The notes beneath the pieces are model-generated. The model was not told where the DNA came from. It ran no database searches and saw nothing but the letters and a program-made list of their open reading frames with translations. A DNA stretch of 64,000 bases, taken from contig NC_089312.1 in assembly GCF_036669915.1 (NCBI RefSeq), positions 13,017,805 to 13,081,804 of the forward strand. The letters run 5' to 3'. A program made the position numbers and the translations under genes. This stretch comes from Pocillopora verrucosa. Its lineage: Eukaryota; Cnidaria; Anthozoa; Scleractinia; Pocilloporidae. Positions 35,467 through 63,304 of the stretch are shown one piece after another (position 1 is the stretch's first letter; each line of letters begins with the position of its first letter).

Positions 35467-35474
35467 TATATAAG
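35467..35474 (+). promoter_or_regulatory. TATA box of gene A
   Basis: TATATAAG 101 bases before the ATG of gene A. Genes B and C have a TATA box at 98 and 101 bases before their ATGs. Confidence 0.7.
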
Positions 35475-35567
35475 ATTGCCTAGCTCGATTTGTCTCAGTA
35501 GAACCTTATTTCACTGACGAATAGAGTTAACTATTAAAGTTTTTGCCAAGGCTTATACCCTCAAACG

Positions 35568-37725
35568 ATGAAAGGTAAGTTTTCGAAATGTTATCGAGGT
35601 ATCATCTTAATATACTGTTTTTAGTTCTACCTTGATTCTGGTTCGGAAGTGGAAATCTGATACTAAAGGAAAGAAACTTGTTGATGCGAAAACACGACGT
35701 TTTGTGGAATTACTTGCCGGTCAAAAATTTATTAATCAAGATCAAGCATATTTTCCGTGGCGACGATCACACAAATTATAGACAAAGTCGACCAAGTATA
35801 TAAAATATAAAATAGACAGTTAATAATCTATTGGTATCTATTGACAACTTGCTTAATCGTTTCATCTACTCTTTTTTTATAGTTTGGCTTGCTTTTTTTC
35901 CCTTCTTGATAACAACGTGTACGGCAATAACTAAGAAGAGATGCCAGTTCGATACGAAAACGAAGACTAAACTGAACAAATTGCTTCCAATGCTGCTAGA
36001 GTTGAGCGTAGATGTATTCAAGACAAAAGAAACGATTGTAAGCATCTTTACTTAAGATCTCTGCAATTGATATTTCATTAAGGATCAATAATGGTGCAAT
36101 TTTCATCTCTCCCTTATGCATGATATTAGCAAACACAATAAGCCGAAGGAACCAATGAAAGATATCTTCAATATAATAAAAAAGGTTCTAACGCACCATG
36201 GAGTCATTTAAGTCTATCCAATGGAATCGAAAATAAGGAAAATCAAGTTCTCTTCCCGTTTGGATAGAGCAGCATTAAAGATTTTGGTGCTAAGGGCTGG
36301 GAGGCAAGTTAGGAATGGACGGGAAATCTTCTTCTTTGAGTTCTAGACTTCTAGAGGACTGGAGTACCACGAACGCGTTCTTCTTAACTGTTTAAAAAGG
36401 GTTGTAAAGGGACAGCCTTCGCTATTTCTACAAAAAGGGGATAAGTACCAAAGTGAAAAAAATTTTAAATTGACCATTTTTTGTAACATTTTACTGTCCT
36501 GCCTCAATTGTAGGAAAAAAGATGGGTAAATGACAACTTCCAGGTGGCTTCCGTAGAGTCAATAGTTACACCTATCCAACAATTACAAGCTACGAAGAAA
36601 ACTACGGTGAGAGACATATCATACTCATTTACTTCTTTGCCAGTGAAACGATGCTCACTTTCAGTCACCTGTTTCTTATTTGTGTAAACCATGTACCCTT
36701 TCCCTCGAGACTCGCCACTAACCAAATTCTGGTTTTGCATCATGAAATTTAGATCGACTTTTTTCTCCGAGGTTTTCATTTGAAACATTTCGTTTTTCTT
36801 CTTACATGGCGAGGGAAAAATCACAATAATATCGGAGACAGGGAATAAAAAACCGGAAAATGAAACAATGGTGAGACACAGATACGAAGTGATGGATGGT
36901 AGCATTTTTATCATTCTTAAATCTTCAGAACACATTAAGGGAAGGCAAACCCCGCAGACGGCTGATCTTCAGTCCCTGGTGCCTGGAGATATTGGGAAAA
37001 ATTTCATAGCGAGAGGCTATCCCCTTCCGGAGCTTGGCCTCTGTTCAACAATTCTAATTTCAGTGTTTTTCCTTTGCAGCCTCAAAGCACTTTAGAAGTG
37101 AACTACCGTATTTTGAAAGTGTTCCTGCCACTCATAAGAACGTTGAAAAGGCAACTCAGCGCTTTCTCAGTGGCTAGAGATGTAACGCATCAGCTTCAGG
37201 AAATTAGGTGGAAAGTTGAAAATACAATGATTTTTGTTCGGGCGATTCAAAATGCATTGAAGGTATGACAATTAAAATCTTGGTTAAAATTATGTATTAA
37301 GGAATTACTTGCAGATAGCGGGCCTGTCCACTCTGTGAAGATGAAGACTTGTCGAGCAAAATGTTCGCTCGGATTCCCGGTTTTCTGTTCTTGTAGTATG
37401 CTGTTTGCACGACTAAATCTTTCAGTGCTAAGAATATGAAGTTGCATTGAGTTTAATGTAAACCAAACTGTTTCCTTCTTTTTTGAAGCCTGGCCAGCCG
37501 CAAACATCAAGTCTTCGCCCCAGCACGACCGCTGTCAGTAACTCATCTCTCAACTCAGTTAATGGTGTTCCGATTGTTGTCCAGACCCCAACAACAGCTG
37601 CACCCTCGGCCATAACACTTTATGGAGTTGCTGTGAAAGCATCCGCTATGCTGGAAGATTTTTACACTGAAATTGTCGTAATGCAAGTGGACCTTGTGAA
37701 AGTAACAAAGATCTTGTGTCCTTAG
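35568..37725 (+). CDS. Gene A: secreted four-helix, class I helical-cytokine-like protein (five exons)
   Basis: Exons: 35,568-35,574, 35,883-36,037, 36,514-36,606, 37,080-37,262, 37,489-37,725; all introns are GT-AG with phases 1-0-0-0; 224 residues. Exon 1 gives ATGAAAG only. Residues 1-17 (MKVWLAFFPFLITTCTA) are a signal peptide. Residues 28-52 form an amphipathic first helix, exon 3 (55-85) is a linker, and exon 4 (86-146) carries two helices (LEVNYRILKVFLPLIRTLKR and a second after HQLQEI). Exon 5 has a Pro/Ser/Thr-rich loop and a last helix (about 190-222). The mature protein has only two cysteines, Cys23 and Cys223, placed to join the two ends as in EPO and TPO. An AATAAA overlaps the region right after the stop. 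The exon-to-helix map and phases match GH, EPO and IL-6 genes; sequence identity to them is not visible. Function as a ligand is inferred; another secreted helical bundle is possible. Confidence 0.72.
36504..36935 (-). other. Antisense 143-codon open frame across gene A exon 3
   Basis: The minus-strand frame has an internal Met (MLPSITSYLCLTIVSFSGFL) followed by a hydrophobic run resembling a signal peptide. It spans exon 3 and part of intron 3 of gene A on the other strand. No homologue is recognised. It could be chance, since a frame of this length is expected about once in a window of this size and composition. Confidence 0.15.
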
Positions 37726-37731
37726 AATAAA
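37726..37731 (+). terminator. Polyadenylation signal of gene A
   Basis: AATAAA immediately after the TAG stop, followed by an A-run. Confidence 0.5.
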
Positions 37732-37867
37732 AAAAAAACACAGGAGCCGATTACAGCTTATTGTAACAATTGTGGCATAATTCAATGAAAATCACAGAAG
37801 TATAGGACTTACAAGAATGCTGTATTGTTTGTTGATCTGTCTTTCGGACGGTAAAAATCCTACAATT

Positions 37868-38705
37868 ATAGGTAATCACATAATTTCGAGTGGAATTTGG
37901 AATAAATAGGCACGAGTAAATTTTTTCATAGACTAACAAAATTGCACGAGCCCTACGGGCCAAAAAATGTACAAGTGCCTTTTTTTCCAGATTGCGCGAG
38001 AAAACTCATGTGATTACGTATTAAAATGTACATGAAATAAATAAGAGATAGCTTATCATAATTATGCAGAAGCAAAGCGCGCATTAAGTGCAAAAATAAT
38101 TTATTTAAACCATGCAAGTGACATCGTGCGTTCGGTCAAAACAACCGCGAACGATCAAAACAATAATATACAATGATATTTTTACATCTTTAAGGCGCAA
38201 AAAAGTTCAAAGTCCGGCTAAACAGTTCAAGGAATTGTTCAGTCTGTGACCGAATCACTTTCGATGAAATGGAATCGTAGTTTGCGAGGTTTAACCACGG
38301 GTAGGATCGCTTGAGCAAAGTGTTAAGCTGGGTCGGCTCGTAATTTTTGATTTCCTTGGCAATTCCCTTCTTTCCAAACCGAAAACTAAAAAGCAGTGCT
38401 TTTTAAAGCTTTCTCGTTGTTAGAGCTGCTTTTCAGCCGCTTTATTGCTGTTGTGGTGGCGAAAGAAACACTACTTACAACGCCGGCCATTGTTTCGCTC
38501 GCAAATTTTCAGCGTATCCAAATGTAGTGACATCCAAAGTTCGCATTTGATTGGCTATCGGTGAGTTTCTTTGATTATTGACCAAGCAGAATGTCTGGTT
38601 TGTTACTTCTTTGCACTGAATTAACCCTCTTCTGCATTGAATTACCTGAAAACTGCTCTAATCTTAACCAATCAGAACTGAGTAATCTTTTCCTGTATAT
38701 AATTA
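37868..38705. mobile_element. Insertion present only in duplication copy 1, with a Crypton-like fragment
   Basis: The duplicated flanks (ATCCTACAATTATA before, GTGTAACATTTACTACG after) are nearly adjacent in the other copy, so about 0.8 kb entered here or was lost there. The block contains GTAATCACATAA at one end and TATATAATTAATA at the other. A minus-strand coding relic lies inside it (38,205-38,490). Confidence 0.5.
38205..38490 (-). pseudogene. Crypton-like (DUF3504-type) protein 5' fragment
   Basis: From an ATG at 38,490-38,488 the minus strand reads MAGVVSSVSFATTTAIKRLK and then KALKSTAF, a stop, and FSVWKEGIAKEIKNYEPTQL with one shift. The STAF.xSVW...KE(I)xNYEP layout resembles the N-terminal region of tyrosine-recombinase-derived Crypton/DUF3504 proteins found widely in corals. 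The catalytic recombinase domain is not present. This is an assignment from motif memory. Confidence 0.4.
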
Positions 38706-39285
38706 ATAGTGTAACATTTACTACGAAGCGTTGCGTTTCAATATATGTCGACGTCTGTGGCGAGGATCTCCACGAGGCTACAAACTGAGATATCTAGTGC
38801 CCTGGGGAAGTAAACTATGATATGGAATATTGCTCCACCGTTTGGCTATTCTGAACCTATTTAATAGCTTTTTTTTATGTATGATGCGTAGAATTGGAAT
38901 CAAGCCTTAGATACACAGCGTTTCGTGGTAATTTGTAATGAAGAATAAGTGACAATTCCGTCAACAAACATCCGAACGGTATATATACTGTAGTTTACTA
39001 AACTCACGATCAGTACATAACTCAAGATGGCACATGGTACTGAACTAACAATAATTCAAAGCATAGATCGTGTTAGACGTTTTGGTGTGTAGTATCGCTA
39101 CAGAAAATTGCAGAACGTTTTTAGGTTTTCGGGTTACCCAGCTCGTTTGGCTTTTAAGTGTTGTCGGTGAACCTTGACACCTTATTAACCCTTGTTAGTT
39201 GAAATGCAACGCTGATGAGGGCTGTAATGAGTTCGCACAGACAAATTTGGAAGTGTTTTTGTTCTCTTCTTTCTTGAGTTGAATG

Positions 39286-40305
39286 AGTAGATAAGGATGA
39301 AAACTTGAACGATTTACATCAAATATACAATCGTCAAAGCCGAGTTAACGAAAATTTACAACTGAGAAACAGTCCTGATTAAATTAGTCATGATTATAAA
39401 TTAATTTTAGTTTATGTTCTATTTATTTTGATGAAGAGTTTAATTTGTGCACTATCAGAAGCTCTGATGAGCTCAAATTGATATGTGTATGAGCAGATAC
39501 CTGGAAACTAGAAATGCTAACTTAGCTTGGTATTTTGTAGATAAGACTTCTGATTACCGATTTTCATCTGGCTTCTTATTTAAAGAAAAATGAAAAGCTG
39601 CTGAGAAGGGGGCCTTTTTGCTGGTCATCCTATTAACTTTGTCACCTTCTCCTTTCTTGTGTCGCTTTTGGTCATGCTGAAAAATACGTCTGTGCCCGCC
39701 AATCGTCTTCGGGATTTGCACGATGTTCGAGATTCTCTGCACTCCACCGCCATTGGCGAAGGTCCACTGGTTTTCTGGTTGTATCATTACGATGTTTGGC
39801 CTATCTGACATCCAGAACATCGACACGCACGGTAAGATGAGCAGGGCTCTCTTTTAAGTGGAAGATGTGGATATGTAACGAGGTGAAAATGTTGTTACAC
39901 ATGTTTTAAAGGAAATTTTAGCGCTTCTTTCAAGCAGGGAAGCATTGTTCAAATCATTAACATACAGGATAAAAAACAAGGGACCAAGATGAAGTTTTCG
40001 TGTTCTGTCTTAACTTTCTTATCAAGTGAATCCAATACGACCTCGACCGACTACGCCATTCGATTTTCACAAATTATTATAACTACATTAAATTTCAAGA
40101 ATACAAAACTGAATGCTCATGCATCACAGCTTGGACTGACAAGTATCCCCTCTCTCGATTGGGAGATGTTAACGCTTTAACATGTACCCCCTATGGTTGA
40201 GAACGGTACTGAGTCTGTTACTCCTCAGGATATTTCCACCTTGGGAACGTTATTACCTTAAGCACCATATAAGCCAGCCTCGATCAAAGTTACCGGTGAA
40301 GCATC
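39286..40305 (+). pseudogene. C': dead paralog of gene C, with start, acceptor and exon 3 lost
   Basis: Aligns with the 5' half of gene C through the duplication. The TATA box is changed (GTAGATAAG instead of GTATATAAG, near 39,288). About 30 bases around the 7-base exon 1 are absent, so the ATG and its donor are gone. The exon 2 acceptor CAG has become CTG (39,629-39,631). Exon 2 (39,632-39,830) keeps the leader-like FLVSLLVML and its GTAAGA donor but is frame-shifted downstream. Sequence corresponding to exon 3 is missing. It cannot make the protein. Confidence 0.78.
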
Positions 40306-40830
40306 TGTTGAAGGCCTAAATGTAATAAATTCCTAAATGTGGTAAGATTTTGTCCTAAATTTAATAAGCCTGCAATGCAATCGCTTAACTGCGATGTTAA
40401 AGTGACAGCTGTTGCGCTAAAGAATCCTCTGACCAGTATTAATGGATTATTGTGGGCTCGCTGATATTAATCAGCGTCTTTTTATTTGCTGATGATGTAG
40501 TTTGAGAAGTATTGGCTACAACCCTTATACTGATGTACTTTTGGCATCAAATTGACGGACATCAAAACAACGAGGAAGCTGACCAATACCTTTCTCTATA
40601 TCATTGGCTCAGACTCTTAAGTGCAACAGATTTTGACGATATACATGTGTGATCAGTGCTGAGGTTAAAACTTCCATGAGCCAAATTATACGGAAAAGGA
40701 AGTCCACCGACCTTAACGCTAGACAAATTCCGGGCTTGGGCCTAATTCCAATTCACCTTCCTATGTCCTGAAAGGAATGTCTTGAAGAAACTGAAGAAAT
40801 GGAGGCTTCACTGAGTATCTTTTCTTACAG

Positions 40831-41079
40831 GGCTCTCCCTCGAATGCAACAGCACTTGTGGGATCTGTGATAAGTGGAAACCATGTATCAGTAGTAATAT
40901 CCTTGCGTACCTCTCAGATCACTTCCCAGGACTCAACAGGACTCCTGAATTCTACCTCACTTACAATTCATGGCGTAGCATTTAGTGTGTCGTTGGTTTT
41001 GAATGGTCTTTATTAGAGCCTTCTTGAAGTGGATGTTGATTTCAAAATGATTCTGAAGACTAAGTGTAGCAAAGACTAA
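40831..41079 (+). pseudogene. E: isolated exon 5 of an A/B-type paralog, with one stop
   Basis: Preceded by a good acceptor (TTTTCTTACAG), it reads a Ser/Thr-rich loop (GSPSNATALVGSVISGN) and then SLTIHGVAFSVSLVLNGLY, a TAG at 41,014-41,016, and SLLEVDVDFKMILKTKC, ending KD at 41,079. It lines up with gene A (AITLYGVAVKASAMLEDFY... to KILCP) and with the IHG...SCY end of gene B, including the conserved last cysteine. Length 83 codons against 79 in A and B. Exons 1-4 were not found upstream, where the end of C' lies. Confidence 0.68.
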
Positions 41080-43540
41080 CAGCCTACAGTTACCATAGTC
41101 TTCGTAGCTGAGTTGTGGAGCGTAAATCCTCATGATAAGTCAGTTTATTAAGTATGGTTTTCTCCTCTAAGTAAATAAATTTACAGAATTGATATCTAAT
41201 GTTTTATTTGCAATGTAATAGGTCCAAATCTAGTAGATTGCAAATAACAAAAAAATTGAACCTAAAAGAGAAGCGTTATCTAAAGAATGTCGAATGGACA
41301 CAAAAATCCTTAATAATGTCTCGGCTCCAGCTGCGTTCGCAGTTTTTTTTTTATGAAAAAATTTCGGTTGTTAGGTTTTGAATATTGACAGCGATATCAA
41401 TAACAGGTCGGACAGTGGAAAGGTGTAAGGCTCAGATTAACAACATAGTATTACAAATTGCTTTCAATGGAGACCTGTGTCTGTCGTTAACAGGGTCTAC
41501 CTTCAGGTGGGAATGATCTGAATAGGGATAGGAAGGGACTATAAGTATTTTACCATATCGTGCATAGTGGGTACTATTTTTGAATCACAAACTGATGTAA
41601 TTTACATGTATATCATCGAGTTGTAAATCATTTGGCCTATTACATAAATATGGTATCGCAGTTTGAATGCTAATGTTAAAACTTTTTAAGGGCACAATGA
41701 AACGAAAGCGTTGTGTTCCTAGACTAACGTGATTTACAGTTATAGGCACACTTCTCTAGGCAAGTAAATTATACTTGTAACCCTTCCACTCTTAATTATT
41801 TACGTCTAAACTCATTTTTTTGTGTTGCTACAGAATCAGAGGTAAAACGATCGTTAATCTCATTCCTAAATTGGTCCCTTCTGTTCATGTCTAGACTTCC
41901 GCTCAGTCCAGCCGGCGGGAAATTAACATGAGAGAGACGAGAGATATCCGCAACTGAGTCAGCATTGAAGCCTTGTAATATTTCCTGCTATGGACAAATA
42001 TTTTCATCTGATTTTATTTATGACAACTTGTATTCAAAGAATTGATTCAATTCCTCTTTGTTACCAGTGTATGACTCTAGTTCAAAACATTCGCCCTTTT
42101 CATCAGCCCAAGCTAAATCCGATTAAGAATATGAGTCGAAGTCTGTTCCTTCGGGAATAATCGTTTGCTTCCGAAACAGAAGCTTTTTTTTTCATCAACA
42201 AACCGCCGCCGCGTTTTTTTTTTCCATATCACACACAATTGAATATACTGTTGTTCCAAAAACTCCTACATCGACTTCAACCACGTAAATCAGTTTTCTG
42301 TCATCTACTTACCGGAAAATTCCCCTCTGCCACTCAACTCCCCGACTTCGTCCTTGCCAAATAATAAAATTCCCCCTATCTATGCTTCCTTGTTTGCCTC
42401 ACGACATGTCAAGGGACATCAGCTGTAAAAATATTCCACGGGAGCTCCCCAGAGAAATAATTTGTTTCCTTCCGAACTGTTTCGTGGTCTTGAGTTTAAA
42501 CAAATATCACAGATTTGTCTTCAAAATGAAATCAATCTAAGAAAATAGCCTCTGTAAAAAGATCTTTGCAACACCGTTTACTGCTAATAACTGATAAGTG
42601 TTGTCCTATCTTTCTTTAAAGAAAGTGCTAAGATGACAGTCATACACTTTTACTTTGACATCCCAGGGAATCCTCTTTCTCTGGACGTTTAAATCGAGTT
42701 GAGTTCACGCCTCTGACAAAATAAATTTGAAATTTTCTTATTTTGGCCTTCAGCACTGAGATAGACAGGTGCATCGTTTTTCCTTGAAAAACATTTCCGA
42801 GAAAAGTTATGCATCTTGCGTGACAATGATAGACTTCCCAGTTCCCTTGGTGACGCAAATCTGGCGCATGTCCGATGAAACATACTCCTTTGTTTGAAGA
42901 TGTTGATCCTTTTGTAACAGCAGGAGCCTTTGACCGCAGTAGGATCAATTTCGCCCTAAACTATACCCTTATTTTTCAAAAAGATCATGGCTGTAGCTTC
43001 AAAATAAATTTACTTGCGTCTTTTGAAAGCCACTAACCTGTTGTATTTGGAGGGTTTAACAATTTTCATCTAACGCTCTATCTCTGAAGAGAATGTATTG
43101 TTTTTCTTGAAAGTTATCTTTTTTATCGTCCGATTTTTACCAAACAAGCCAACTAAAAGATTTTTTTCTCTATTTTCTATTTCATTGTTTTTTTTTGGTC
43201 CTGATGTAGTACGGCTACAACAAGAAGTGGCGATTGATTCTGGAAAATTAGAAATAACGGGAAATCTTCTTGTTGGAGCAGGTGGACGGCAAGAATATTC
43301 CCTATTCCGGTTTCCATACCAAATTCATAATTTAACTACAGAATTTAAATGATCTCATCACTAACCATGATTTTTTAACTAATTACTTCTTTAAAATTCC
43401 AGTTACTACTTTTAGTTTTAATTTCGTTTACTTCTATTGCTTGGTTTAACCATCCAGCCTAGTTGAACAAGTAAACACAAATTTTCGGTATTTTATTTTC
43501 ATTTGCGAAGTTGTAGTTTTTTTCCTGGTGATCACTGCAG
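41080..43540. other. Intergenic, no exon of the family found
   Basis: Contains open minus frames at 42,640-42,948 (102 codons) and 42,689-42,883 with no domain I recognise. Poly-T and poly-A runs occur near 41,340, 42,185 and 42,215. Confidence 0.3.
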
Positions 43541-44327
43541 TAAGTTTTCCCTTTGGCTGTATCTTCAGAGTAATGACCTGTTTTCTCGTTACACGTCCTT
43601 CCCAGACATGGCCATGCAAAAGGGACTTCATTCTGGCGAATGGAGAATCGTGCTCGGTAGCAGCACGATATTATATAGATTTCATAACTGTCAAGATGTC
43701 TGGATTTTCAATCGAAACACAATAATACACACTTTGATATTCGCGGTGATCCGTTTTTCAGTTTTTGTGCGATAGGTGGTGTTGCTCTAATTATGCTGAT
43801 TTGCCTCACAGAAAAGAAATTTGCAAACAGATCCCTATAAGGAAACCAATGTAGACTTCATCGTACATCTCGGAAGGTTCAATAGAAAAGCACATACGGT
43901 AAACACTTATGTAGCAGTTTCTCACTTACTTTTATGTCCTTCAGAATTACTTTGTATGTCAATAAACGCTACTGTCATTCTTAAAGATAGCCTACGATAT
44001 AATGGTTACGATAGTTTATTGGAGGCTGCTTTTCTAATGAACTTGATTAACTGAATAAGTAAACTTCGTCAAGATAGGTAGGTCAACATAAAAGGTATAG
44101 AGTTTATTGAGCCGATTTTAGATACTTTCTTCTATCAATTTTTAGGCTTAAGAAGATTTTCAGAGTAAATTGTCGCGTAATGAAAACCTTTATGTTACTG
44201 ATGAAAAATTGTATGAAACAAATGAACCGTCCCCAAGAAGCCGAAGGACTGGTTCCCCAACGAACTCGGGTTGTAAAGGAACACCAAGGCACTCACAAAT
44301 CATCGGCCATGAATCGCCAAAATCATC
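43541..44327 (+). pseudogene. D: B-like paralog, exons 2 to 4, probably dead
   Basis: Exon 2 follows an acceptor ending at 43,540 and reads, in frame, a hydrophobic leader (FGCIFRVMTCFLV) and then QTWPCKRD, matching HTWPCRRD of gene B. The donor expected after 43,698 is TC instead of GT, and the frame meets TAA at 43,723. Exon 3 is clean: 43,812-43,898, phase 0 at both ends, with PYKETNVDFIVHLGR against LYKASNTHLFGPPRK in B. Exon 4 (about 44,153-44,327) has CRVMKTFMLLMKNCMKQM against IRVVKAFISLTRNSTKQL in B and a GTAAGT donor, but is one base out of phase. No exon 1, TATA or exon 5 was found. Confidence 0.65.
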
Positions 44328-46049: not shown

Positions 46050-46074
46050 TGACTCAATTGTGTGGGTATAAAAG
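46050..46074 (+). promoter_or_regulatory. Core promoter of gene B: AP-1-type site and TATA box
   Basis: TGACTCA (46,050-46,056, a perfect AP-1 consensus) lies 10 bases before TATAAAAG (46,067-46,074), which is 98 bases before the ATG. Use of the AP-1 site is inferred. Confidence 0.6.
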
Positions 46075-46164: not shown

Positions 46165-48007
46165 ATGAAAGGTATGACTATAATTGCACATCTAAAGAAC
46201 TTGTATACTGACAACTTATTTCTCACGTTTCTTACGTTTTGTGACATAAAAAAGCACTGTGGCTTGAGAATAAGATTTAGATTATACAATTTGAAATAGT
46301 TAAAAAAAAATTGGTAAGTTCCTCCAACTTAATACTTAATAAAAAAATGTAAAAAATTATAAACTGTAAGTAAAAATATCATACTAATCACACTTCTTTC
46401 TTGATTTCAAAGCAGGATATTTCATCGGTAGTTTTGTTATGTACGTCATCATTTCCATTGGTACTAGTTTGCCTGTCAATCAGACGAATCACACGTGGCC
46501 ATGCCGAAGAGATCAAAATGTTCGTCGTGAATTGTCAGAAGCCCAACATAAGTCTCTCGAACTATCAGACATAATCACTGATCTCGGCAAAAACATGGTA
46601 CGCGTTAACAGCTTTATTATCTCTATTAGTCCTGTAATGTTGCAGCTATGGACCTTTATTTGTATTTTAACAATCTACTGAATCAATCTCCTCTGCTTTG
46701 ACAGTCTTCGAGATGGCCAATGAACCTCTATAAAGCCAGCAACACCCATTTATTTGGTCCACCTCGGAAAACTGTCGTAAAGGTATCTATGCTCATCTAT
46801 CAAGATTTTCAATTCTAGTTTATGCTTTAATTAAGAGATAACTCAATTTAATGGAAAACATTCAGTTTAAATGCAATACTGAGTAAATCGGATAATTTAC
46901 TCTATCAACATGTAGTTGCATTGTATTAGGAACGGAAATTCCTTTTTTTAAAGTTCTTCTCAATTCTACAAAAAGCAAAAAGTAATTATTGGGCAATTTT
47001 ATGGATATAGAGGTTTTTAGGTTAAAAGTAACATAGACCTTTCCCAGTGTGACATTTATTAGCCTTTCATCATCCCATAGTGATTACTTTGTTCAGTCGC
47101 CCAAAATAAACTTTTTATCCTTTTCTCTTCAGCCGCAGCAAGTGCTTGACGAAAACATTCGTGTAGTCAAAGCCTTCATCTCACTAACGAGGAATTCCAC
47201 AAAACAGCTTAGCCATCTGAAACTTGGTGAGAAGTTGATGATGCGGGAGGGAATGAATCGAATAAAACGTCTGGCGAACGCATTGGTGCAGCGACGTTTA
47301 CCAAGGATTTTGATCGAAATGAAGGTAAGGGTTAAAAACCCATAGAAATGGAGGAATGATGGGACTATTCGAAATTAAGAGATCCTCGCAGCTAAGAACA
47401 GTACTGAACTAGTTAGCTCAGTTGGTTGAGCGCTGCACCGGTATCGCAGAGGTTATGGGTTCAAATCCCGTACGGGCCTGAATTTTTTTTCAGGTCCTAT
47501 TTTCGACTACTAGTTCAGTAGTGTTCTTAGCTGCGAGGATCTTTTAATTTCGTTTCTTCACCGCAGTGCAAATATATGAATGTCATATATCTAAAATCAT
47601 CAATGGCACTATTGTTTGTCTTTTAATCAGCAATTGAGTGATAAAACAAGTATTGAATTTGATTATGATAAAGTATTGCGATTTTGTCGATGTTTTGTTG
47701 AGAAATTGATATACTCCCTAAGTCTTCAGCTTCTGAAACGTGATTTCACCGTTTTTTTAATATTCAGCAGGGCTCAAGAGGGAAAAGAACTAGTGGATTA
47801 AGAGGAGGCCGGCAGATGAACAATACAGACATCAAACCACAGACACCACTTGCTTTAACCAAACCTCCAAGTGTCACATCGATCCATGGCTCCACAACTG
47901 TTCAGGATTTTGTTTTCCGAACACAACTCATTCTGACCGATTTCAATACGAATATTCTCGATTTGGTGAGTGATTTACGGAATATTGCAAAACAAAGCTG
48001 CTATTGA
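46165..48007 (+). CDS. Gene B: secreted four-helix, class I helical-cytokine-like protein (five exons)
   Basis: Exons: 46,165-46,171, 46,416-46,597 (or from 46,413), 46,705-46,782, 47,133-47,324, 47,771-48,007; all GT-AG; phases 1-0-0-0; 231 residues. Residues 1-22 form a signal peptide (YFIGSFVMYVIISIGTSLP). Two N-glycosylation sites (NQT, NHT) follow, then TWPCRRD and the first helix. Exon 3 (26 codons) is a linker, and exon 4 holds two helices (NIRVVKAFISLTRNSTKQL and GMNRIKRLANALVQRRLP). Exon 5 has a Pro/Thr-rich loop, then FVFRTQLILTDFNTNILDLV to the end SCY. Only Cys32 and Cys230 are present, the same end-to-end pair as in gene A, and exon 5 is 237 bases in both genes. Intron 4 carries a tRNA-like repeat. 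Identity to A is low; the match is in architecture. Confidence 0.75.
47370..47551. repeat. Inverted-repeat element with a tRNA-like core, inside intron 4 of gene B
   Basis: Arms of about 44 bases (47,370-47,413 and 47,506-47,550) are inverted copies with two or three differences. Between them lies a tRNA-like sequence with an A box (TAGCTCAGTTGGTTGAGCG) and a B box (GGTTCAAATCC), followed by a small hairpin around a T-run (GGCCTGAA... TTCAGGTCC). The acceptor stem cannot form on the 5' side, so this is not a functional tRNA gene but a SINE or MITE with pol III promoter elements. Confidence 0.65.
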
Positions 48008-49743: not shown

Positions 49744-50357
49744 GGGAGGTGGCACATGATCGGAAAAATCACTATCCTCATATTTCGCTCAGAGATACCT
49801 TAGGGTAAGTCTATAAACGTGGTATAATTTTTTTGTTCAGAGCTGTTTTTATTTTCTAGAAAATCACCAAACACTGTATCGAGCCCCAACCGCCATAAAA
49901 TGACCGAAATGAAGTCGACGAGTAGGGCAACAAAACCTTTATTCCTCAAAAGCGCAAAAGAAAGCAAGTCTTTCTGAATTTTACCTATTTGTATACGAGG
50001 TATTAAAAAATGATTTGAATCTAATAACGGGCTTGTTGACATAACTATGAATTATTGGCGAATATTTGAAAATAGCCAAAATTTGATTGATTAAAAATTA
50101 CATTTTGGAGCAGTTTTTCAATAAAAATGTTTCCTACCTGGTATAACTCGGAATCACTTGAGATGAGCATTTTTACAAAGTGGAAAGAATGTTCTTTCCA
50201 TGGATATAAAAATTAATTTGGGGCTCTTAATTACTGCGAAGAAGTAGCCCGGTCTATTTCGTGCAAATCGCAATGCCGCCATGTAAACAACTGCAGATAA
50301 TCCAATTAGGCTTTTTATTATCGAAGCCATAATTCCAACAAAATCTTATCGCTTTGA
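49744..50357 (+). repeat. Left arm of a long inverted repeat
   Basis: Inverted copy of 53,137-53,780. Clear matching stretches are CTTAGGGTAAGTCTATAAAC (near 49,799), GGGCTCTTAATTACTGCGAA (50,221) and TAATCCAATTAGGCTTTTTA (50,299). Identity is around 90 percent in the central part and lower at the outer end. Confidence 0.85.
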
Positions 50358-53136: not shown

Positions 53137-53780
53137 TCAAAGCGGTAAGATTTTGAAGAAATTATGGCTTCGATAATAATTTGAAGAAATTATGGCTTCG
53201 ATAATAAAAGAATAATTGGATTATCTGCGGTTGTTTACACGGCGGCGTTGCGATTTGCACGAAATAGATCGGGCTATTTCTTCGCAGTAATTAAGAGCCC
53301 CAAATTAATTTTTATATCCTTGAAAAGAACATCGTTTCCAATTTTCAGAAATGCTCATCTCAAGTGATTCCGAGTTATACCGAGTAGGAAAAATTCTTAT
53401 TGAAAAACTGCTCCAAAATGAAATTTTTAATCAATCAAATTTTGGCGATTTTCAAATATTCGCCAATAATTCATAGTTATGTCAATGATCCCGTTATTAG
53501 ATTCAAATCATTTGTTAATACCTCGTATACAAATAGATAATATTCGGAAAGACTTGCTTTCTTTTGCGCTTTTGAAGAATAAGGTTTTTGTTGCCCTACT
53601 CGTCGGCTTCATTTCGGCCACTGTTATGGCGGTTGGGGCTCGATATAGTGTTTGGTGTTTTTCTAGAAAATAAAAACAGTTCTGAACAAAAAAATTATAC
53701 CACGTTTATAGACTTACCCTAAGGTATCTTTGAGCGAAGTATGAAGGAAGGGCTTTTTCTAGGCATGTGCCACATTTTTT
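53137..53780 (-). repeat. Right arm of a long inverted repeat
   Basis: Complement of 49,744-50,357. It contains a local tandem duplication (GAAATTATGGCTTCGATAAT twice, near 53,159 and 53,185) absent from the left arm. Confidence 0.85.
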
Positions 53781-53839
53781 TGATTTCACGCGGTCTCCAG
53801 AAAAATTCTCTCTTAACAAAACTTCTCGAAATGTGCTAT

Positions 53840-54000: not shown

Positions 54001-54670
54001 TTACGCTAACCATGTGCCTATCAGCGTGGTAGTGACCTGAAGTTATCACAGCTCGGACGCTTCTTGCAAAATGTTATTACTATCAGTTTCAGAGATTGAT
54101 TCTTCAGTTTCCAGCATTTGGAAAAAAATCATCGTATCGCAAGAATGTACATCATAACCTAAGCATTAAGTACGCCTCGAGATGTTGAGTGAAGAGAAAG
54201 TGGCGAAATGTTTTGTGAGACAAACCATTTCCTGGAGTTCAAACGAATCGAGTAGAATCATGAAAACATAGCACTGAAAAGTACCATGACCAAACAATAA
54301 AATTCACTCCTTGCAGTAGGACTAACTCCATTTTACTCCTGAGTTTGTTTGCATCACACATTTGCAGTCCGTAATTTTTGATGTGTTCTCACATGACAGT
54401 ATTGTCAAAATCAAACTACCGCCTCAGTGTTAATGAAAACAAGAACATCGCCGACTTAATCTCAATTTATTTTAATTTTGAAAAAGACCATTACTTCGTT
54501 TGTAAGGTACAGCCGTACGATAACTTCTTTTCCCTTAACACCACGACTGTACTAAACATTCCAAACAATAGGACAATAAATAACTTGAGGAATACGAACC
54601 TTTTGATAAAAAAGGGTTTGAATTTTTCTGAGCCTTAGCGTGAGAGATAACCCAGATAAGACACGACTAA
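54001..54670. other. Intergenic, nothing recognised
   Basis: An open plus frame at 54,378-54,638 follows a CAG and contains a GTACAG donor-like site at about 54,507, but no homology to the A/B/C exons is apparent. Confidence 0.25.
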
Positions 54671-54941
54671 CCTCCTCCTCTTTCATGGATCCTTTGTAAT
54701 TCGCTTCTATTTGTTGAAGACCTCTTTTCAGTCTGTTTTCTAGACCTTGTATTTTATTCTCACGTTGCTCTTTGCTAAATTTTCGCCTTCTTACTTGTGC
54801 CTTTTCTTGTTCTCTTTCGCGTTCCTCTTGCCGTACTGTGCCTATATCAGCGTCCTCTCTAACTTTCTTTCGCGTTTTCTCGACTCGCTTTACGCCTCTT
54901 ACTTCTTGCTCTCTTTGGTCGCTCTGTCTCTCTCTTTGCAA
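54671..54941 (-). other. Highly charged coiled-coil open frame, possible exon
   Basis: The minus frame from 54,941 reads almost only Arg, Glu, Lys and Gln (for example REEREREQEKAQVRRRKF-like runs) to KGSMKEEE, where a donor-like GTTAGT follows at 54,670. It lies downstream of the Gypsy pol relic in the same orientation. It could be a host coiled-coil exon or the relic's 3' part. Confidence 0.3.
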
Positions 54942-55049
54942 TCCTTTTTTTACTCAAAATCCTTTCTCCACGAACTTAAATTATAACTATTTTCTCCGGT
55001 TGACAAAGCTTTCGCAAAATACTGAGAATTACTGCTCAACTATAACCTC

Positions 55050-57072
55050 ACCAGTAGGATTTTCAAGTGGTCATCTGCTCTCTCATGTTTGTTCGCTGGT
55101 TCAACCTTTGCCTCTCTAATCTGTGTGTGATTCCTCCGAACTGGTCCCATTAAGGTGCTAACATTGCAAGACCGTGGTGCCGTACTTCCAATAACTTTAC
55201 CATATATTCAAGGTTGGTGCTTATTTGCAGGCCTGGGTTTCACGAACACTTTTCCCCTCTTTAAAAATTCTTTAAGGGGCTGCAAGACCCTCTTGTTGTA
55301 CTGAGGCCACTGATCTTCGCCTTCTTTCTGTAAGTTTTCATACTCCAGACTAGGGGACGCTGCCTGATGGGTGAGTTGGTGGTCTGCCGTATGGATGATA
55401 TCTTGAGTCTTCTTGACATGAGACGCTTAGCTGGTGAGTAGTAGTAACCCTGCTGAGGCGTGTTTCTGTACGCTTGGAGAGCCAGATAAGGAACCTCTTT
55501 GCGAGGTTTCTTCAGGATGTTCTTGGCAATTTTAACTGCTGACTCCACTTTCCCATTTCCCCGGCTGTAATGAGGTGATGATTTGACTATGGTGAAACCA
55601 TATTCTTGAACGAATCTTAAGTACTCGTGAATCTCGAATTGCAGGCCATTGTCTGTTATCAACTCATCTGGGATGCCATGGCGAGTAAACTGTCTCTTCA
55701 TTGCTCTGATCACTGAGTTAGCCGTGGTGTTTCCACTGAGGAAGTCAAGTTCTATGTAATCACTGTAATGGTCGACCATTACGAGGTAGTTATATCCGTT
55801 TAACTGGAAGAGGTCAGCACTTATTTTTGACCACGGTCTAGTTGGTATTGTGTGAGATTTCGGTTCTTGTGGTCTCTCGCTAACGTAGTGGGTAGAAAGT
55901 CCACATGAAAGGCATTTTTCCATGATTGCTGCTTGCATTCCAGGCCGAAAGAGAGACTCGTGCGCTCTTCTTATGCTGTTGTCGACCCCCTAGTGCGCTT
56001 GTGTATTTTCTGCAACATCGCTTCTCGTAACGGAGAAGGGACAATAACTTAATGAGATTGATAGGCTACTCCATCGTAAACAGAAATTTCGTCTCTGAAA
56101 CTCCAATACTGCCTTAGTTGCTCTGGCTTTTCCTTTCTTTCTGCAGGCAACCCATTAGTTTTTAAATTGCACAGGAATACCAGGAAGGGATTTTCACTGG
56201 TCTCAGTCTTGTTTGATTCGTTGCGTGGTTTCAGATGTGAATTTGTTTGGCTCAATATCCATCTCAGCTAATTCCACGCGGAACAGTTCGTATTCTTTCT
56301 TAGCACTGGTTGTTGAAGGATGATCAATGACAGGTGCACAAGATTGAGTGTCGGCGACGTAAAGTTCCTTTCCTTTCTTATATCGAATTGAAAATTGATA
56401 TCTTTGTAGCTTGCGCATCATTCGCTGCAGTCGTTGAGGGGCTTTGCAGAGAGGTTTCTCGAGGATTGTCTCGAGCGGTTGATGATCTGTGTGTACCGTG
56501 ATGTCGTGTCTTCCGTATAAGTACTGGTGCCTGTTTTCCATGCTAGAGACAATTGCGAGGCACTCCTTTTCAGTTTGAGCGTAATTCTTCTCGGTGCTGG
56601 TCAGTGTGTGGGTTGTGAAGCAAACAGGCTGATCGTTTTGTAACAGTGCGCCTCCGATTGCATCTTCAGACGCGTCCACTTGCGGAGTTACGGGAATAAT
56701 AGGGTCGTAGTAGCGTAGTACAGTCGCTGATGCAAGGAGGTTCTTTGCTGAACTGAGTGCATTTTCATGATTCTTCGACCACAGCAATTCAGGGGTCTCT
56801 TTCGCCAAGTCTCTCAGTGGAAGAACTGTTTCCGACAAGTTGTGGCAGAACTTGCTTAGGTACTGGCACATTCCAAGAAAACGCTGTACCCCAGCCTTGT
56901 CAACGGGTGTTGGCATCTTTGTGATTGCGTCTACCTTGCTGGGTCCGGGCGCTTGTGCCCCATGAAAATGACAGAAGGAGATTTTAACTGAAACTTTTTC
57001 GCAGACAGTCGGAGATCATGGTTACTGCACTTCTCTAATAGGCACGTGAGATTTTTATCGTGGTCCACTAGT
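55050..57072 (-). pseudogene. Gypsy (Ty3-like) retrotransposon pol relic
   Basis: On minus from 57,072: the end of the RT palm and thumb (SAKKFQLKSPSVIFM, VDAITKMPTPVDKAGVQRFL), RNase H (TPQVDASEDAIGGALLQ; VHTDHQPLETIL), a connecting piece (56,255-56,049), and the integrase. The integrase HHCC region shows KCLSCG; its core has WSKISADLF, LITDNGLQFE and GNGKVESAVKIAKN, so all three acidic residues are in place. A C-terminal part follows to about 55,050. Stops or shifts separate 57,000/56,916, 56,203/56,049 and 55,938. The 5' half of RT and the protease are missing at the junction near 57,080. Confidence 0.82.
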
Positions 57073-57097
57073 CAAGTTCTCTCCGGTTTAAACCAAG

Positions 57098-57610
57098 ATG
57101 ACTTCGAATACACCGTTTCCAGAATTCAAAACAACAGGAGATGAAAAGCACGACCTAGAAACATTCATCGTAGATTTGATAGATCACTACACTGAAAACG
57201 CAGAATTGGTACGATACATCAAAAGAAAGAGAATAAAACTGATAAAACTATGGCATACATTATCATTATCTCCTGCGGCTAGGACGGTGTACAAATGCAG
57301 TCTGGCACTACGCGAAGCCGATCTGAAGAAATCTCACAGTGTTGTGAGAGAATATTGTGGCGCTAGCATTGGAGTGTCAGGGGAACGACAAAAGTATCTA
57401 CGCCTACTGCAACAAGAAAACAAGTAATTGCGTCATGGGAGACGAGGATATGAAATCAAGAAGCACAATGTGAACACAAGACTTTGCGGACGAACTCATG
57501 ACGGACCAGTTTATCGCCGGCTTAACGTCAGATGCCTTTCGAGTTAATCGGAGAAGGGCATAGACATAACAAGAAAAAGTCAAGTTACGAGAAGTGGTAG
57601 TGAGGTGATA
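57098..57610 (+). pseudogene. Gypsy gag relic, opposite in orientation to the adjoining pol
   Basis: From an ATG at 57,098 the plus strand reads FPEFKTTGDEKHDLETFIVD, SLSPAARTVYKCSLALREAD and GASIGVSGERQKYLRLLQQE, then a TAA. Shifted frames continue with ADELMTDQFIAGLTSDAFRV and EKVKLREVV to about 57,604. This is the capsid part of the same kind of Gypsy element, but it runs away from the pol relic, with only about 25 bases between the two truncated ends. Confidence 0.72.
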
Positions 57611-58055
57611 ATTACATAGTGCAACGCGAGTATGCGCACTTCATTATCAGCTGCCAGTGTTTTCTGGCGCACATTAATGAGGTATCCAAGCTACTTACGC
57701 AATTACGCCTGCGCATTTCCTTCTTCCTCACCTTCTATTACGCAATGGCTAAGTATTGCCCGCAATGCAGTTGGCCGCGCATGCTAATACTAGCACCTTG
57801 TGCAGTCGGTCGTAAGTCCAAATTTTTCCGGCTTGATGGGTTACTACTATTTCCTATAATCATGGGGCTACGCTGCGCACGTGCGAGCTTCGCTATTACT
57901 CGTTGTTTAATAGAGTGGTTTGGTTTGAAGGATTCTATCTGTTAAATTATACCGTTATTAACTATGCTCTGTTCTGTTGTAAAGCTCACAGGAAGCGGCT
58001 AGAGTACGAAAGACTTATAGGGAGAAACAAGAGACGTAGTCGAGTACTTCTAAGG
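57611..58055. other. Unassigned, possibly retroelement flank
   Basis: GC-richer than its surroundings with many GCGCA words; one plus frame (57,619-57,945) is open for 108 codons without a domain. Confidence 0.25.
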
Positions 58056-58217
58056 TAGTAACTCAACTCTCAGCTTAATTCGCGGTGTTCCGATGGTTGT
58101 CCAGATCCCAACAACAGTAGTACCCTCGGCCATAACAATTTATGAAGGAGCTGTACTCACATTGTCGTAATGCAAGTGGACTTTGAGAAAATAATAAAGA
58201 TCTCGTGTCCTTGAATT
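58056..58217 (+). pseudogene. A': exon 5 relic of a gene A copy
   Basis: Matches gene A exon 5 from GTAGTAACTCAACTCTCAGC onward (GGTGTTCCGATGGTTGTCCA, ACCCTCGGCCATAACAATTT). About 30 bases from the start of the last helix are deleted, and the first codons carry changes. Upstream exons are replaced by the Gypsy relic. It ends close to a counterpart of the gene A stop (CTTGA). Confidence 0.75.
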
Positions 58218-58699
58218 TCCTAAGATTTGCTAGTCCGCTAAATATATTAGTTCCCTTCCTAGTGCCTGTTAATAAAAAAAAAATTTTAAGACCAGATTTG
58301 AGATAGAGGAAGAAAACACAAAATTGCAAATAGCGAGGAAACTGCCTCCGTAACCCCTATTCTTTTCGGCTTCTAATGGATTGGCAGGACAATTTCCACA
58401 AATTGTGAAAATTTTGAGATTTCACCGAAACAAATTGAAGAAAATCAAAGGCAAATCCAAATTATAGACGGCAAGCGCCTCCCTTCGTGGAGCCTTAGCT
58501 TAATAACGAAAATCATTTTGATAATATTTACTATAGCAAACGATAGTCCGAACCTTGCTCATTGCCTTTTGATGGCTTTTAGTGACCTTGAAAAGCAAAA
58601 ACGTAAATTTCTTTTAGAAAAACAATACGCCGGTGCGAGCGCCAACAACAGCGCCAACGAACAAAAAACCCTTGAGAGCCTCCTTAAAATGGATAAAGA

Positions 58700-61050
58700 A
58701 AATACAGGATAGAATTACAGCTTAATTTAACGAGTTTGGAATAATTCCATAAAGATCACAAAAAATAGGACTTAAGAAAATGCTGTGTTGTTTGTTGATC
58801 CTTCGTTTGCACGGTAAAAAAATCTTAAAAGTAGTGTAACGCTTACTTCGGATCGTTGCGTTTTGATTTATGTCGACGTCTGTAGTGAAGATCTTCATGA
58901 GGCCTAAGGTTACGGCGCTATCTGGCACTCTAAGGGAAAAAGGAATCCGGTTGGACATGAAAACTATGATTTAGAATAATGCTCCACCGTTTGACTCTTT
59001 TCTGAACCAATTAAATGACTTTTCGTTTCTATTTATAATAAGAACACATGGAATCAAGCCTTAGATGCTCAGCGTTCTGGGTAAACACAGCAGCTTGATT
59101 ATGTCCTCTGGTTCTTTGCTTTATTTTTGTGAACCCAGCAGGCTTAGCAGTTAGATTTGTTCCTGGTATCTGCTCAGACGGCTGGGTTTAATAAGAAAAA
59201 CAGTGCATCAAAGGAACGAGTCTAAGTAGCTATTTTTTTCCTTGTCACTTAAGCTGCACAAATGCTACTTCATTTACTGATATTTGTAATGAAAATAAGT
59301 GACAATTCATTCAACACACATGCAAACGGTATACCTACTGTATTGTCCAGAATCACGATCAGTACATAACACATAATAATACACAATAATTTACTAACAA
59401 TAATCCAATTCACAGATCGTATTAGACGTTTTTTAAAACATTAAAATACATGGTATCACCATAGAAAATATTAAAAGGGTTTTACGGCTGAGTAATTCGC
59501 TTTTTTTAATACTTCCCCCAAGTTGCGAACTGGTCAGGTTATCCAGCTTGTTTGGCTTTTAAATTTTGTCGGTGAACCCTGACACGTTATAACCCTTGTG
59601 AGATGTTGTGCGACTTCAATGAGGGCTACAATTAGTTCGCACAAACAGAATTGAAAGTTTTTTTTAAGTCCACTTCTTTCTTGAAACATTCAGAGTTATC
59701 AGCTCATTAAGTTTCCGGTTTTCATTGTATCAGTATGATGATCCAAATGGGCCGGTGGCTTTTACGGCTAACCGGTTGGGCTATTTTCGCATTTTCAGAC
59801 CTAACGGCTAAATCTTTTGGCCATTTTACGGCTACCAGTTAACCCCTTTGAGACTCTCTTCTATCCCAATGTTTCCCTTGTCTTCCATCTAGCGAATTTT
59901 CTTACAACAGAAGTCTTTTCTATTGTTTATGACAGTCTCCTGTTTACTCCAAATAATGGATACAAGCATAAAGGCGGACTAATCATCTCATTTATCCCTG
60001 AAATCAGATCAAAGGAAGGAATTAATCTTTCAATATCGAATCCCTCAGTTGTACCATCCACTGCTGCCATCCATGCTTTGACTGAACCGATCCAGCGGCG
60101 ATCTATTTGCTTGTCATACATTTAATTCCCTTAACCTGATTTGGATTTTATTTCCCAAGCACGAAATTTTCCTTCAATAGATCGCAGGAGTTAAAATAGA
60201 CTATATTTTTAACTGGTCTACGGCAGCTGGTCTACTGCAGTCTATTACTATAGTCTCCTTAAAGCTAGCTAATGTGTCGATCGTGTAACTAGCGAATAGC
60301 ACGTATGGTCATCGACTTCGTCAATCAGTGGTTCTCAAAGAATCTCGTAAGTGCTTATGCAAAATTGTTGGTTTTCTAAGGCGACTTATGCAAACAGATA
60401 AAAACATGTGTGATAAAAAAGTGCTGTAGGGAAATTTGAAGGATGAAACATCTTGAAACTGTGTTAAATTTTAGCACAGAAGTATTTTACATACCTTGAA
60501 TAATGCCAAGAAAGTAAATTTAGATGTGACTAAGAACATGGAAAGTGAAATTATTCAACAATTGATGTAAACAATCTCATTTGACTCCTCTTGGTTAGAA
60601 CTTAAAAACTCAATCTAGTTCCACAGTCAGAGTCCTGTAAACCAGGATTTTGAAAAGCAGAGAGTCACACAAGCAACACTTATTGTTGTATCGCTGAGAT
60701 TAACATAACCCGAACCACGCCGCTTGAATCCCCTTTAGTGGAAGTGGCTCAGAACAGTAGGAGATATTTCATTATGGTAAGATTAAGCTACATTGGAGAT
60801 TTCTAGTATTTTTAGGCCAGTGAGGTAAGAACGACAAAGGCAATCCTTCCGAAAATAAAAGAAATATTCCTTCGATATATTCCTCTTGAATATATTACCT
60901 AAAAGTTGCTGTCTCCTGCTTGGTGGGGGAAGAATAAAAATCTAAAATAAGATAGGTATTGGCCAAAACTCTTTTTCGTATTATGTCTTCTACTCCCTGT
61001 TGTTCAAGAATAAAAAGTCCTGAATCTACCTTACCCCGGAAGATTGAACT
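58700..61050. other. Intergenic within the duplication, with repeat-like inserts
   Basis: 59,750-59,850 has TTTTACGGCTAACCGG-type words repeated three times (CGGCTAA, CGGCTAAAT, CGGCTACC), a dispersed-repeat style. At 60,121-59,927 the minus strand reads MYDKQIDRRWIGSVKAWMAA and VDGTTEGFDIERLIPSFDL, a coding-like piece with no family that I can name. Confidence 0.3.
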
Positions 61051-61053
61051 GAG

Positions 61054-61061
61054 TATATAAG
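61054..61061 (+). promoter_or_regulatory. TATA box of gene C
   Basis: TATATAAG, 101 bases before the ATG, the same word and distance as in gene A. TTCAAGAA, a short STAT-like palindrome, lies about 48 bases upstream. Confidence 0.7.
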
Positions 61062-61154
61062 GATGGAAACTTGGACTATTTACCTCAAATATACAATTGT
61101 CAAAGCTGAGTTAACGAAAATTTACAAACTGAGAAATAGAGAAGTAGAAGGCTC

Positions 61155-63304
61155 ATGGCAGGTACGCAAAAAAATCCTGATTAAATTATCATGATAATTA
61201 TAAATTTATTATTAGTTTGGTTGTCTGTTTATTTTGATGAAATGTTTAATTTGTGCTCCATCAAAAGGTATGATGAACTCAAATTGATATGTGTTTAAGC
61301 AGATACTTAGAAACCAGAAATTCTTACTGAGCTTGGTATTTTGTAGATAAAACTTTTAATTAGCGAAATTAATTTGGTTTGTATTTAAAAAAATATTTTT
61401 GAAATATTTTCAGGTCATCCAATAAAACTCTTTTCTTTTTCTTGTCTTGTGTTGCTTTTGGTCATGCTGGTCAATACTTCTGTACGCGCCAATTGTCTTC
61501 GGTCGAGACGATGTTCCAGATCCTCCGCACTCCACCGTCATGGGCGAAGGACCATCGACTTTCTGGTTGTATCGTCACAATTTTTGGCCAGTCTGACATC
61601 CAGAACATTGACGTACTCGGTAAGATATACGATACTCTTACTCTGTAAGTTTTCAAGTTTGCAAGTTTTGGTGGTAAAAATGAAACTGCACATAGTTTAA
61701 AAGAAATCATCATGCCTCTTCTGGGTTATTAAAAATGATTCTTACTGACTGAATGACAGAAACTAGAAGTATTTATTTTTCTGCACTATATTTAACTCGT
61801 TCAAAACCATGACGCCTCAACGTTTGCCGTTTCAGAATTTTCAGTCCAAAATCATGGATTCATGTGACTCAGCCTGTGCCCCTTTGTCGCGTGAAGTAAA
61901 AGCAGACTTGAACTTAACTACCTCAAGTTGCACTAATGTCTCGGTAAGCAACGAAGTTGTAGAGTTTTGTCTTAATTTTCTCATCGTGTGAATCCGATAT
62001 GAGCTCGAATGATTGCACTATTCGATTTGAACAAATTATAATGGCTAAATCAAACTTAAAAGAATGCAATTAATTACCAAGCATCACATCGTGGACGGAC
62101 AGGTCTCCCCTCTCTCGGTCGGGAGATGTTAAAGTTTTCACATATACTCCTTGGGGTTGAAAACGGTAGTCTGTTACCTCCCAGGGTATTTCCACCTCAG
62201 GAACGTTATTGCGTTGAGTACCATTTAAGCCAGCCTCAATCAAAGTTGCCAGTAATCAACACTTGTATAATGATTCCTTTGTTTTAGGCCATCTCACACT
62301 ACTGGTTCCTTATACCAAGTTCTCAATAGGACTGAAACCTAACTTGATAATCTGCTTGATCATAAACATAAAGGAAACGATAATCAGTCAACGAGGAGTT
62401 CTCGGAACAGGCTAGGGTTGTCCAGCCACAACATAAGTTTCTGTAGGTTTCCTTTACTCATCTGGCTATCCTGTTATGATATGAATTGCAGTACACGTAA
62501 AATTTGACAGTTTTTTTTGCAATTCCATTTACTCAGACAAGTATAGTTCTGGAATTTCACCGAAGAATGTCTCAAGGGTACAGCCATTTGCTTAGAGAAT
62601 TATTGGGAGAGCTATCACATCTTAAAAACTTGACAACTCCTTTAGCAGACCTCACTTTTCTGCAAGATTATGTGCAGAATACGATAAACAAGTTGGCTAC
62701 AAAGGCAGTTAAAATTGTAAGTCTCATTCATGTGATTCAGAATAATACTTCTTAATGGCTAATACAAGTTAGGAATCATGCTGGGTTTGAAGGTAGGAAC
62801 TTAAACAAGGATTATCGCTACTGCCGTAAAGGTTATTGTCACTTTATTCTTAAAGTAATGAGGCTTTGTAAGGATATTTCAGGCCGTTCTGTTTATGGCT
62901 TTGTTACCTACGAGCCTTTTTTACTTTAGCAGGCAGTAGTCTTTCACAGCATACTCTTGACCTTATGGCATTAAAACAACTTTGAATAATTCCTGAAAGC
63001 AGGAGATAAAATCGTCAAAGATTACTCCAGTTATACCATACCCCGTTAGTCCAGCTCTTTTGTAAAAATGGTTTCCATGTCTTGACAATTTCAACTTCCA
63101 TATCAGGATCGGAGACTCAAGGGTCTTCCACCGCTAAACACTACGGCTTACCAGCAGCAGCTCTCCTCAACCATGCGCAAGAACAGTCTTCACTCTCAGT
63201 CTGCCTACAAAGTGATGCACCTTGCACAGTGTGTATTAGCTGACTTGCATGAAGCATCCACTCAGATGATCATCGATTTCTTTAAAATCAAAAGTGGTTG
63301 GTAA
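61155..63304 (+). CDS. Gene C: secreted, helical-cytokine-like protein, six-cysteine type (five exons)
   Basis: Exons: 61,155-61,161 (ATGGCAG), 61,414-61,619, 61,836-61,943 (or from 61,845), 62,537-62,716, 63,107-63,304; all GT-AG; phases 1-0-0-0; 232 residues. Residues 1-28 are a signal peptide (core CLVLLLVMLVNTSVRA). A basic segment follows, then a first helix (TIDFLVVSSQFLASL). Exon 3 (36 codons) is a Cys-containing linker, exon 4 has two helices (VLEFHRRMSQGYSHLLRELL and FLQDYVQNTINKLATKAV), and exon 5 has a Gln-rich loop and last helix (AYKVMHLAQCVLADL). The mature cysteines are 30, 36, 81, 85, 103 and 209, unlike the two of A and B, so the fold is probably braced differently. Architecture is the same; sequence has diverged strongly. 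Confidence 0.72.

Follow-up and report, generated by a model that had tools for sequence, protein, structure and literature searches.

A cluster of tandemly arranged genes was analysed in a 64,000 bp stretch of the genome of the scleractinian coral Pocillopora verrucosa (contig NC_089312.1, here C1:13017805-13081804; hereafter the window) and in the flanking DNA. With moderate confidence, the genes are read as encoding class I helical-cytokine-like ligands, i.e. secreted, probably glycosylated proteins of the long-chain four-helix type, arranged in tandem and subject to birth-and-death evolution. The evidence for this kinship was a five-exon plan with intron phases 1-0-0-0 in the window genes A, B and C, which was found again in gene D2 of the left flank, together with the helix-per-exon map of low-confidence structural models, loop lengths in a long-short-long order, a conserved pair of cysteines, TATA boxes and a match of D2 to the growth hormone/prolactin family.

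Splice structure and outside support of genes A, B and C

The earlier note on the window, made from the sequence, had described three complete genes and at least four relics on one strand, and five exons, phases 1-0-0-0 and a 7-base first coding exon in each complete gene. Base-by-base rebuilding of the models reproduced this structure with GT..AG borders at all 12 introns, and four relics (C', E', D' and A') were recovered with tblastn (Table 1). The predicted proteins were 224 aa (A), 232 aa (B) and 232 aa (C) long, with a coding length of 699 bases, stop included, for both B and C. The splice pattern of the three genes rests on gene models and on annotations of relatives.

An annotated P. 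damicornis protein (P0002, LOC113673860) contained all four junctions of A. Two candidates were present for exon 3 of A and the one in Table 1 was chosen because P0002 contains that version, with 1 change in 31 residues. As P0002 runs from A into exons 4-5 of B, A and B are neighbours in P. damicornis too, and P0002 is probably a fused annotation of two genes. A P. meandrina protein (P0001) showed 95% identity over 96% of B, crossed B junctions 2/3, 3/4 and 4/5 and corresponded to B minus its first ten residues; junction 1 of B was the sole protein junction of A and B without support from annotated Pocillopora proteins. In addition, P0008 of Desmophyllum pertusum was 60% identical to A over 76% of its length, spanning exons 3-5. 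Orthologues were present in two other Pocillopora species and in Desmophyllum, and the exon chains of A and B are not due to chance, given the junctions of A in P0002 and P0008 and those of B in P0001. P0003, P0004 and P0009 were set aside as support, as their sequences read into introns. For C, no homologue was found in the protein collection searched, and exons 3-5, with part of exon 2 by inspection, were supported by C3, a second C-type gene outside the window.

The genes of GH, EPO, IL-6 and G-CSF have five exons with phases 1-0-0-0, and GH has the corresponding helix-per-exon map. A pattern scan found a TATA box in four of the six genes scanned, close to 100 bp upstream of the ATG in A, B and C (Table 1) and at about -113 in E, against a chance expectation of 0.22 per 160 bases.

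Gene structure also brought the class II helical cytokines (interferon/IL-10 type) into consideration. Phase-0 introns also occur in the multi-exon genes of class II, and in IFNL2/3 a short additional first coding exon is followed by an intron that interrupts a codon after its first base (PMC2654155). The type I interferon genes of fish contain four introns of phase 0 (PMC4929537), and four interferon homologues were claimed in Acropora digitifera by automated annotation (PMC3750612). However, the IFNL2/3 genes, counted with the short first exon, exceed the coral genes by one exon, the Pfam matches of 12 distinct family proteins included no interferon or IL-10 family, and the sole match at curated level was to class I; kinship with class II cytokines is considered very improbable.

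Sequence and structural tests of cytokine kinship

The Pfam scan of these 12 proteins showed that D2 matched Hormone_1 (PF00103, growth hormone/prolactin) with an E value of 7e-5 and 23.1 bits against a curated cut-off of 22.7. The match was colinear, with residues 87-159 on profile positions 87-159, which is the helix B-C region. Gene D1 also produced a colinear match, under the cut-off (E 7.5e-4, 19.7 bits; residues 36-156 on profile positions 32-159), and the two matches count as one observation because D1 and D2 are 88% identical. None of the nine D2 controls (one reversed sequence and eight local shuffles) matched PF00103, and their best E value for any family was 0.018; profile-sampled sequences were discarded as controls as they were too diverged. 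Weak IL11 matches of D1 (0.032) and D2 (0.088) were both below the cut-off. A ten-member profile searched against the PDB listed prolactin in 7 of 20 rows, colinear and with E values of 0.17-0.54, and a profile comparison with growth hormone/prolactin scored 21.8 (probability 2.4%), with helix A placed on helix A. Searches of the PDB with single sequences produced one weak row for B (Spire) and four designed proteins for D2, and the NCBIfam scan gave one weak, unrelated match. Taken together, the sequence tests are suggestive of cytokine kinship, not proof of it.

The proteins of A, B, C and D2 were 218-232 aa long with an N terminus that was hydrophobic by inspection. Structure prediction and a fold search, the check that the earlier note had proposed, produced four helices in models of low confidence. 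AlphaFold placed helices at residues 20-56, 80-104, 110-132 and 188-221 of P0001 (B), with a short one at 138-141, and at 11-36, 53-86, 90-120 and 165-197 of P0007, a relative of A. The mean predicted local distance difference test (pLDDT) scores were 54.5 and 53.2, respectively, from alignments of six sequences; the helices are plausible at this low confidence and their packing is unreliable. In these two models helix A fell in exon 2, helices B and C in exon 4 and helix D in exon 5, and the loops were 23, 5 and 55 residues long in B and 16, 3 and 44 in the A relative. The helix-per-exon map claimed for all three genes thus found low-confidence agreement in B and the A relative. In A, B and D2, a sequence check showed one Cys just before helix A and another at the C terminus or adjacent to it, and the same pair was present in F and E by inspection. 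C instead had a CxxxC motif in its linker exon, and its last helix region contained a Cys; both were kept in C3.

A number of results weigh against kinship. The other ten of the 12 members and both consensus sequences matched no cytokine family in Pfam, and D2 itself also weakly matched unrelated helical families (Cnd1_N, 0.0078). A designed protein (E 0.00096) and two NSP1 rows ranked above the PDB prolactin rows, and none of the eight rows of a nine-member profile without the C group was prolactin. The growth hormone/prolactin comparison score was barely above 40 block shuffles (at most 21.3; reversed control 13.6), and the comparisons with EPO/TPO (13.3 against 15.1 reversed) and with IL-6/G-CSF (14.1, inside the shuffle range of 11.4-19.2) showed no signal. 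Foldseek against the PDB produced no match at an E value of 0.001 or better for either model and the best structural matches of the low-confidence models were ordinary helical bundles; VIA-align on both weak models listed designed bundles, TIP47, FAT and similar structures, which is undecisive at such model quality. The TATA pattern was absent from the upstream scan of D1 and D2. Finally, the ratio of nonsynonymous to synonymous substitution rates (dN/dS) was 0.47-0.49 for D1-D2, which is slight evidence of selection, and 0.78 or 1.44 depending on the method for exon 5 of A against its broken copy A2. Selection was therefore not strongly shown.

The lack of a cytokine match in most members and both consensus sequences and the generic bundles among the best structural matches would suit a coral-specific secreted four-helix family of independent origin that converged on the gene plan of class I cytokines and is possibly a signal outside the superfamily. 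The exon plan of A/B/D/E/F also counts once, because these genes are paralogues. However, D2 exceeded the curated growth hormone/prolactin threshold with clean controls, the same exon plan occurred in the C group, which shows no recognisable sequence relationship, and the helix map, loop lengths and cysteine layout all point towards cytokines; convergence is considered unlikely, with roughly one chance in four kept for it. The claim of class I cytokine-like ligands in the earlier note is partly supported: the gene plan and the PF00103 match of D2 favour it, but ten of 12 members lacked a cytokine family and the structural models were of low confidence.

Comparison with known systems and proposed mechanism

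The coral genes resemble growth hormone/prolactin in the five-exon 1-0-0-0 plan, in the helix-per-exon map of the low-confidence models, in the D2 match over the PF00103 cut-off and in the C group cysteines of the linker exon and last helix region. They differ from it in that D1 and D2 alone of the 12 members matched, and in that the cysteines of A/B/D/E/F would tie the two ends of the protein. The latter arrangement resembles that of EPO, a five-exon gene whose linker and B-C exon sizes are near the 87 and 183 bases of D2; its N-terminal Cys before helix A is paired with one at the end of helix D. However, the profile comparison with EPO/TPO gave no signal and none of the 12 members matched PF00758 (Erythropoietin/thrombopoietin) at E values up to 10 within the filters of HMMER. 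The IL-6/G-CSF/IL-11 group shares the five-exon 1-0-0-0 plan, and D1 and D2 matched IL11 weakly, but these matches were below the cut-off and the profiles gave no signal to IL-6/G-CSF. Assignment of the whole cluster to the growth hormone/prolactin, EPO or IL-6 family was rejected as unjustified, with one of 12 members over the PF00103 cut-off. Among invertebrates, amphioxus is described as having a type-I helical, GH-like cytokine, 208 aa long and of low identity to the GH of vertebrates (PMC9010856); it is a chordate gene.

Under the class I reading, a TATA promoter about 100 bp upstream would drive a short, probably inducible mRNA and the leader peptide would be removed from the secreted and probably glycosylated product. 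The mature protein would fold as four helices, with helix A from exon 2, a B-C hairpin from exon 4 and helix D from exon 5, and in the A/B/D/E/F family a disulfide would probably tie the Cys before helix A to the C-terminal Cys. The ligand would then join two receptor chains on neighbouring cells, with signalling through STAT. An exon-by-exon genome search found two colinear STAT_bind pieces on C10 (23.1 and 20.8 bits, under the cut-off of 27), and open stretches near them read like STAT exons by inspection.

As for a receptor, CRLF3 was reported from cnidarians to mammals, with no endogenous ligand identified (PMC6797617). It is a natural candidate partner because of this range without a known ligand. 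CRLF3 is said to be without the class I cysteine signature and possibly without a leader (PMC1963337); it is a receptor and not a ligand. There is about an even chance that class I helical cytokines predate the cnidarian-bilaterian split and that corals kept and amplified a fast-evolving cluster, in which two or more lineages of deep divergence (A/B/D/E/F and C) share an ancestral five-exon gene and one member may be the endogenous ligand of an ancient orphan receptor such as CRLF3.

The amphioxus report, a 2022 review, traced GH-like cytokines no deeper than amphioxus, with none detected in sea squirts and acorn worms (PMC9010856), and a passage citing others placed the four-helix bundle already in cnidarian ancestors, naming no genes (PMC6797617). 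Literature listings of titles and abstract starts showed no cnidarian gene reported as a class I helical cytokine. If the kinship is true, this class I cytokine-type signalling protein is older than the animals known to have it, class I cytokine signalling extends, on its ligand side, outside Bilateria, and testable ligands become available in an animal in which immunity and symbiosis are important to reefs.

Cluster organisation, relics and turnover

The genome searched was a 353 Mb assembly of 52 contigs; protein matches of about 95% to two Pocillopora species point to Pocillopora or a close relative, and those to Pocillopora and Desmophyllum show it to be cnidarian. The flanks of the window were searched with exon-level queries at C1 12.740-12.975, 13.008-13.018 and 13.082-13.102 Mb. 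Further genes and relics were found there (Table 1); exon 1 of F and of C3 was not found in the flank searched. Exon 2 of E was out of frame in the assembly by inspection, for which a pseudogene or an assembly error are both possible.

Table 1. Genes, relics and TATA boxes of the cluster. Positions are those of the window unless preceded by C1.
Feature	Position	Strand	Support
TATA box of gene A, 101 bp 5' of ATG	35467..35473	+	pattern scan
Gene A exon 1 (7 coding bases)	35568..35574	+	rebuilt model; P0002 agrees on first residues
Gene A exon 2, leader and helix A	35883..36037	+	rebuilt model; P0002
Gene A exon 3, AB linker	36514..36606	+	one of two candidates, picked by P0002
Gene A exon 4, helices B and C	37080..37262	+	rebuilt model; P0002, P0008
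Gene A exon 5, CD linker, helix D and stop	37489..37725	+	rebuilt model; P0005, P0008
Relic C' (C-type gene, exon 2 frame broken)	39279..40297	+	DNA blocks; tblastn with C
Relic E' (exon 5 of E-type gene, with stop)	40813..41076	+	tblastn with E, 73%, E 1e-35
Relic D' (exon 2-4 pieces, D-type, frame broken)	43528..44327	+	tblastn with D2, 53-67%
TATA box of gene B, 98 bp 5' of ATG	46067..46073	+	pattern scan
Gene B exon 1 (7 coding bases)	46165..46171	+	rebuilt model; outside P0001 coverage
Gene B exon 2, leader and helix A	46416..46597	+	rebuilt model; P0001
Gene B exon 3, AB linker	46705..46782	+	rebuilt model; P0001
Gene B exon 4, helices B and C	47133..47324	+	rebuilt model; P0001
Gene B exon 5, CD linker, helix D and stop	47768..48007	+	rebuilt model; P0001
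Relic A' (exon 5 of A-type gene, frame broken)	58057..58211	+	tblastn with A, 64% and 68%
TATA box of gene C, 101 bp 5' of ATG	61054..61060	+	pattern scan
Gene C exon 1 (7 coding bases)	61155..61161	+	rebuilt model alone
Gene C exon 2, leader and first helix region	61414..61619	+	rebuilt model; part seen in C3 by inspection
Gene C exon 3, linker with CxxxC	61836..61943	+	rebuilt model; C3
Gene C exon 4, two putative helix regions	62537..62716	+	rebuilt model; C3
Gene C exon 5, linker, last helix region and stop	63107..63304	+	rebuilt model; C3
Gene E, five-exon plan	C1:12741059-12743343 (about 12741.06-12743.34 kb)		flank search
Gene D1	C1:12746282-12747735		flank search
B relic	C1 12749.2 kb		flank search
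Relic A2, exon 4 out of frame	C1 12888-12889 kb		flank search
C relic	C1 12902.6 kb		flank search
Gene D2, five exons, phases 1-0-0-0	C1:12910924-12912413		flank search
B relic	C1 12913.1 kb		flank search
Gene F, exons 2-5, just right of window	C1 13081831 to about 13083346		flank search
Gene C3, exons 2-5	C1 about 13086.1-13087.7 kb		flank search

By sequence, A, B, D, E and F formed one family while C and C3 formed a second group, linked to the first by gene structure and not by sequence. A reading of A, B and C as one fast-evolving family was dropped, because C was not recognisable from A or B by sequence. The gene order was A, C', E', D', B, A', C in the window, followed by F and C3 beyond it, E, D1, B relic at 12.74 Mb, and A2, C relic, D2, B relic at 12.89-12.91 Mb. 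Because this order recurs, birth-and-death duplication of a set [A-C-E-D-B] is suggested, with about four duplications from which the survivors differ by copy and some members were not found. The recurring pieces span 0.35 Mb and the window is a slice of the larger cluster. Direct repeats between 37.5-40.3 kb and 58.1-62.3 kb of the window are the trace of one such duplication, and the DNA blocks of relic C' were 75% and 77% identical to 61044-61626 and 61953-62253. Recent gene conversion may also act at the 3' end of D1/D2, since intron 4 was 99% identical compared to 88% for exon 2.

Fast birth-and-death clusters with several broken copies would also fit a non-ligand role of the secreted helical proteins, for example as host-defence effectors. 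No defence-protein family was found among the Pfam matches of the 12 members, however, and the gene plan and D2 match point to cytokines; such effectors are quite improbable, with about one chance in eleven.

Other elements were identified between and beside the genes. A small element at 47370-47552, in intron 4 of gene B, had 44-base inverted ends (95%) around a tRNA-like stretch and looks like a dispersed repeat, because 43 of the 46 genome matches of the query were short and all lay at the end that holds it. Between gene B and relic A', an inverted repeat of about 600 bases was found at 49749-50351 and 53171-53773 (91% identical), and retroelement pieces (integrase core, reverse transcriptase RNase H) were present on the minus strand at 55261-55989 and 56203-57015. 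A total of ten open reading frames of the window were scanned for domains and six matched a family over its cut-off. Left of the array, mobile-element pieces at 577-1224, 3695-4357, 18238-18633 and 19243-20100 contained PIF1-like helicase, reverse transcriptase, Myb/SANT-like and DDE transposase domains.

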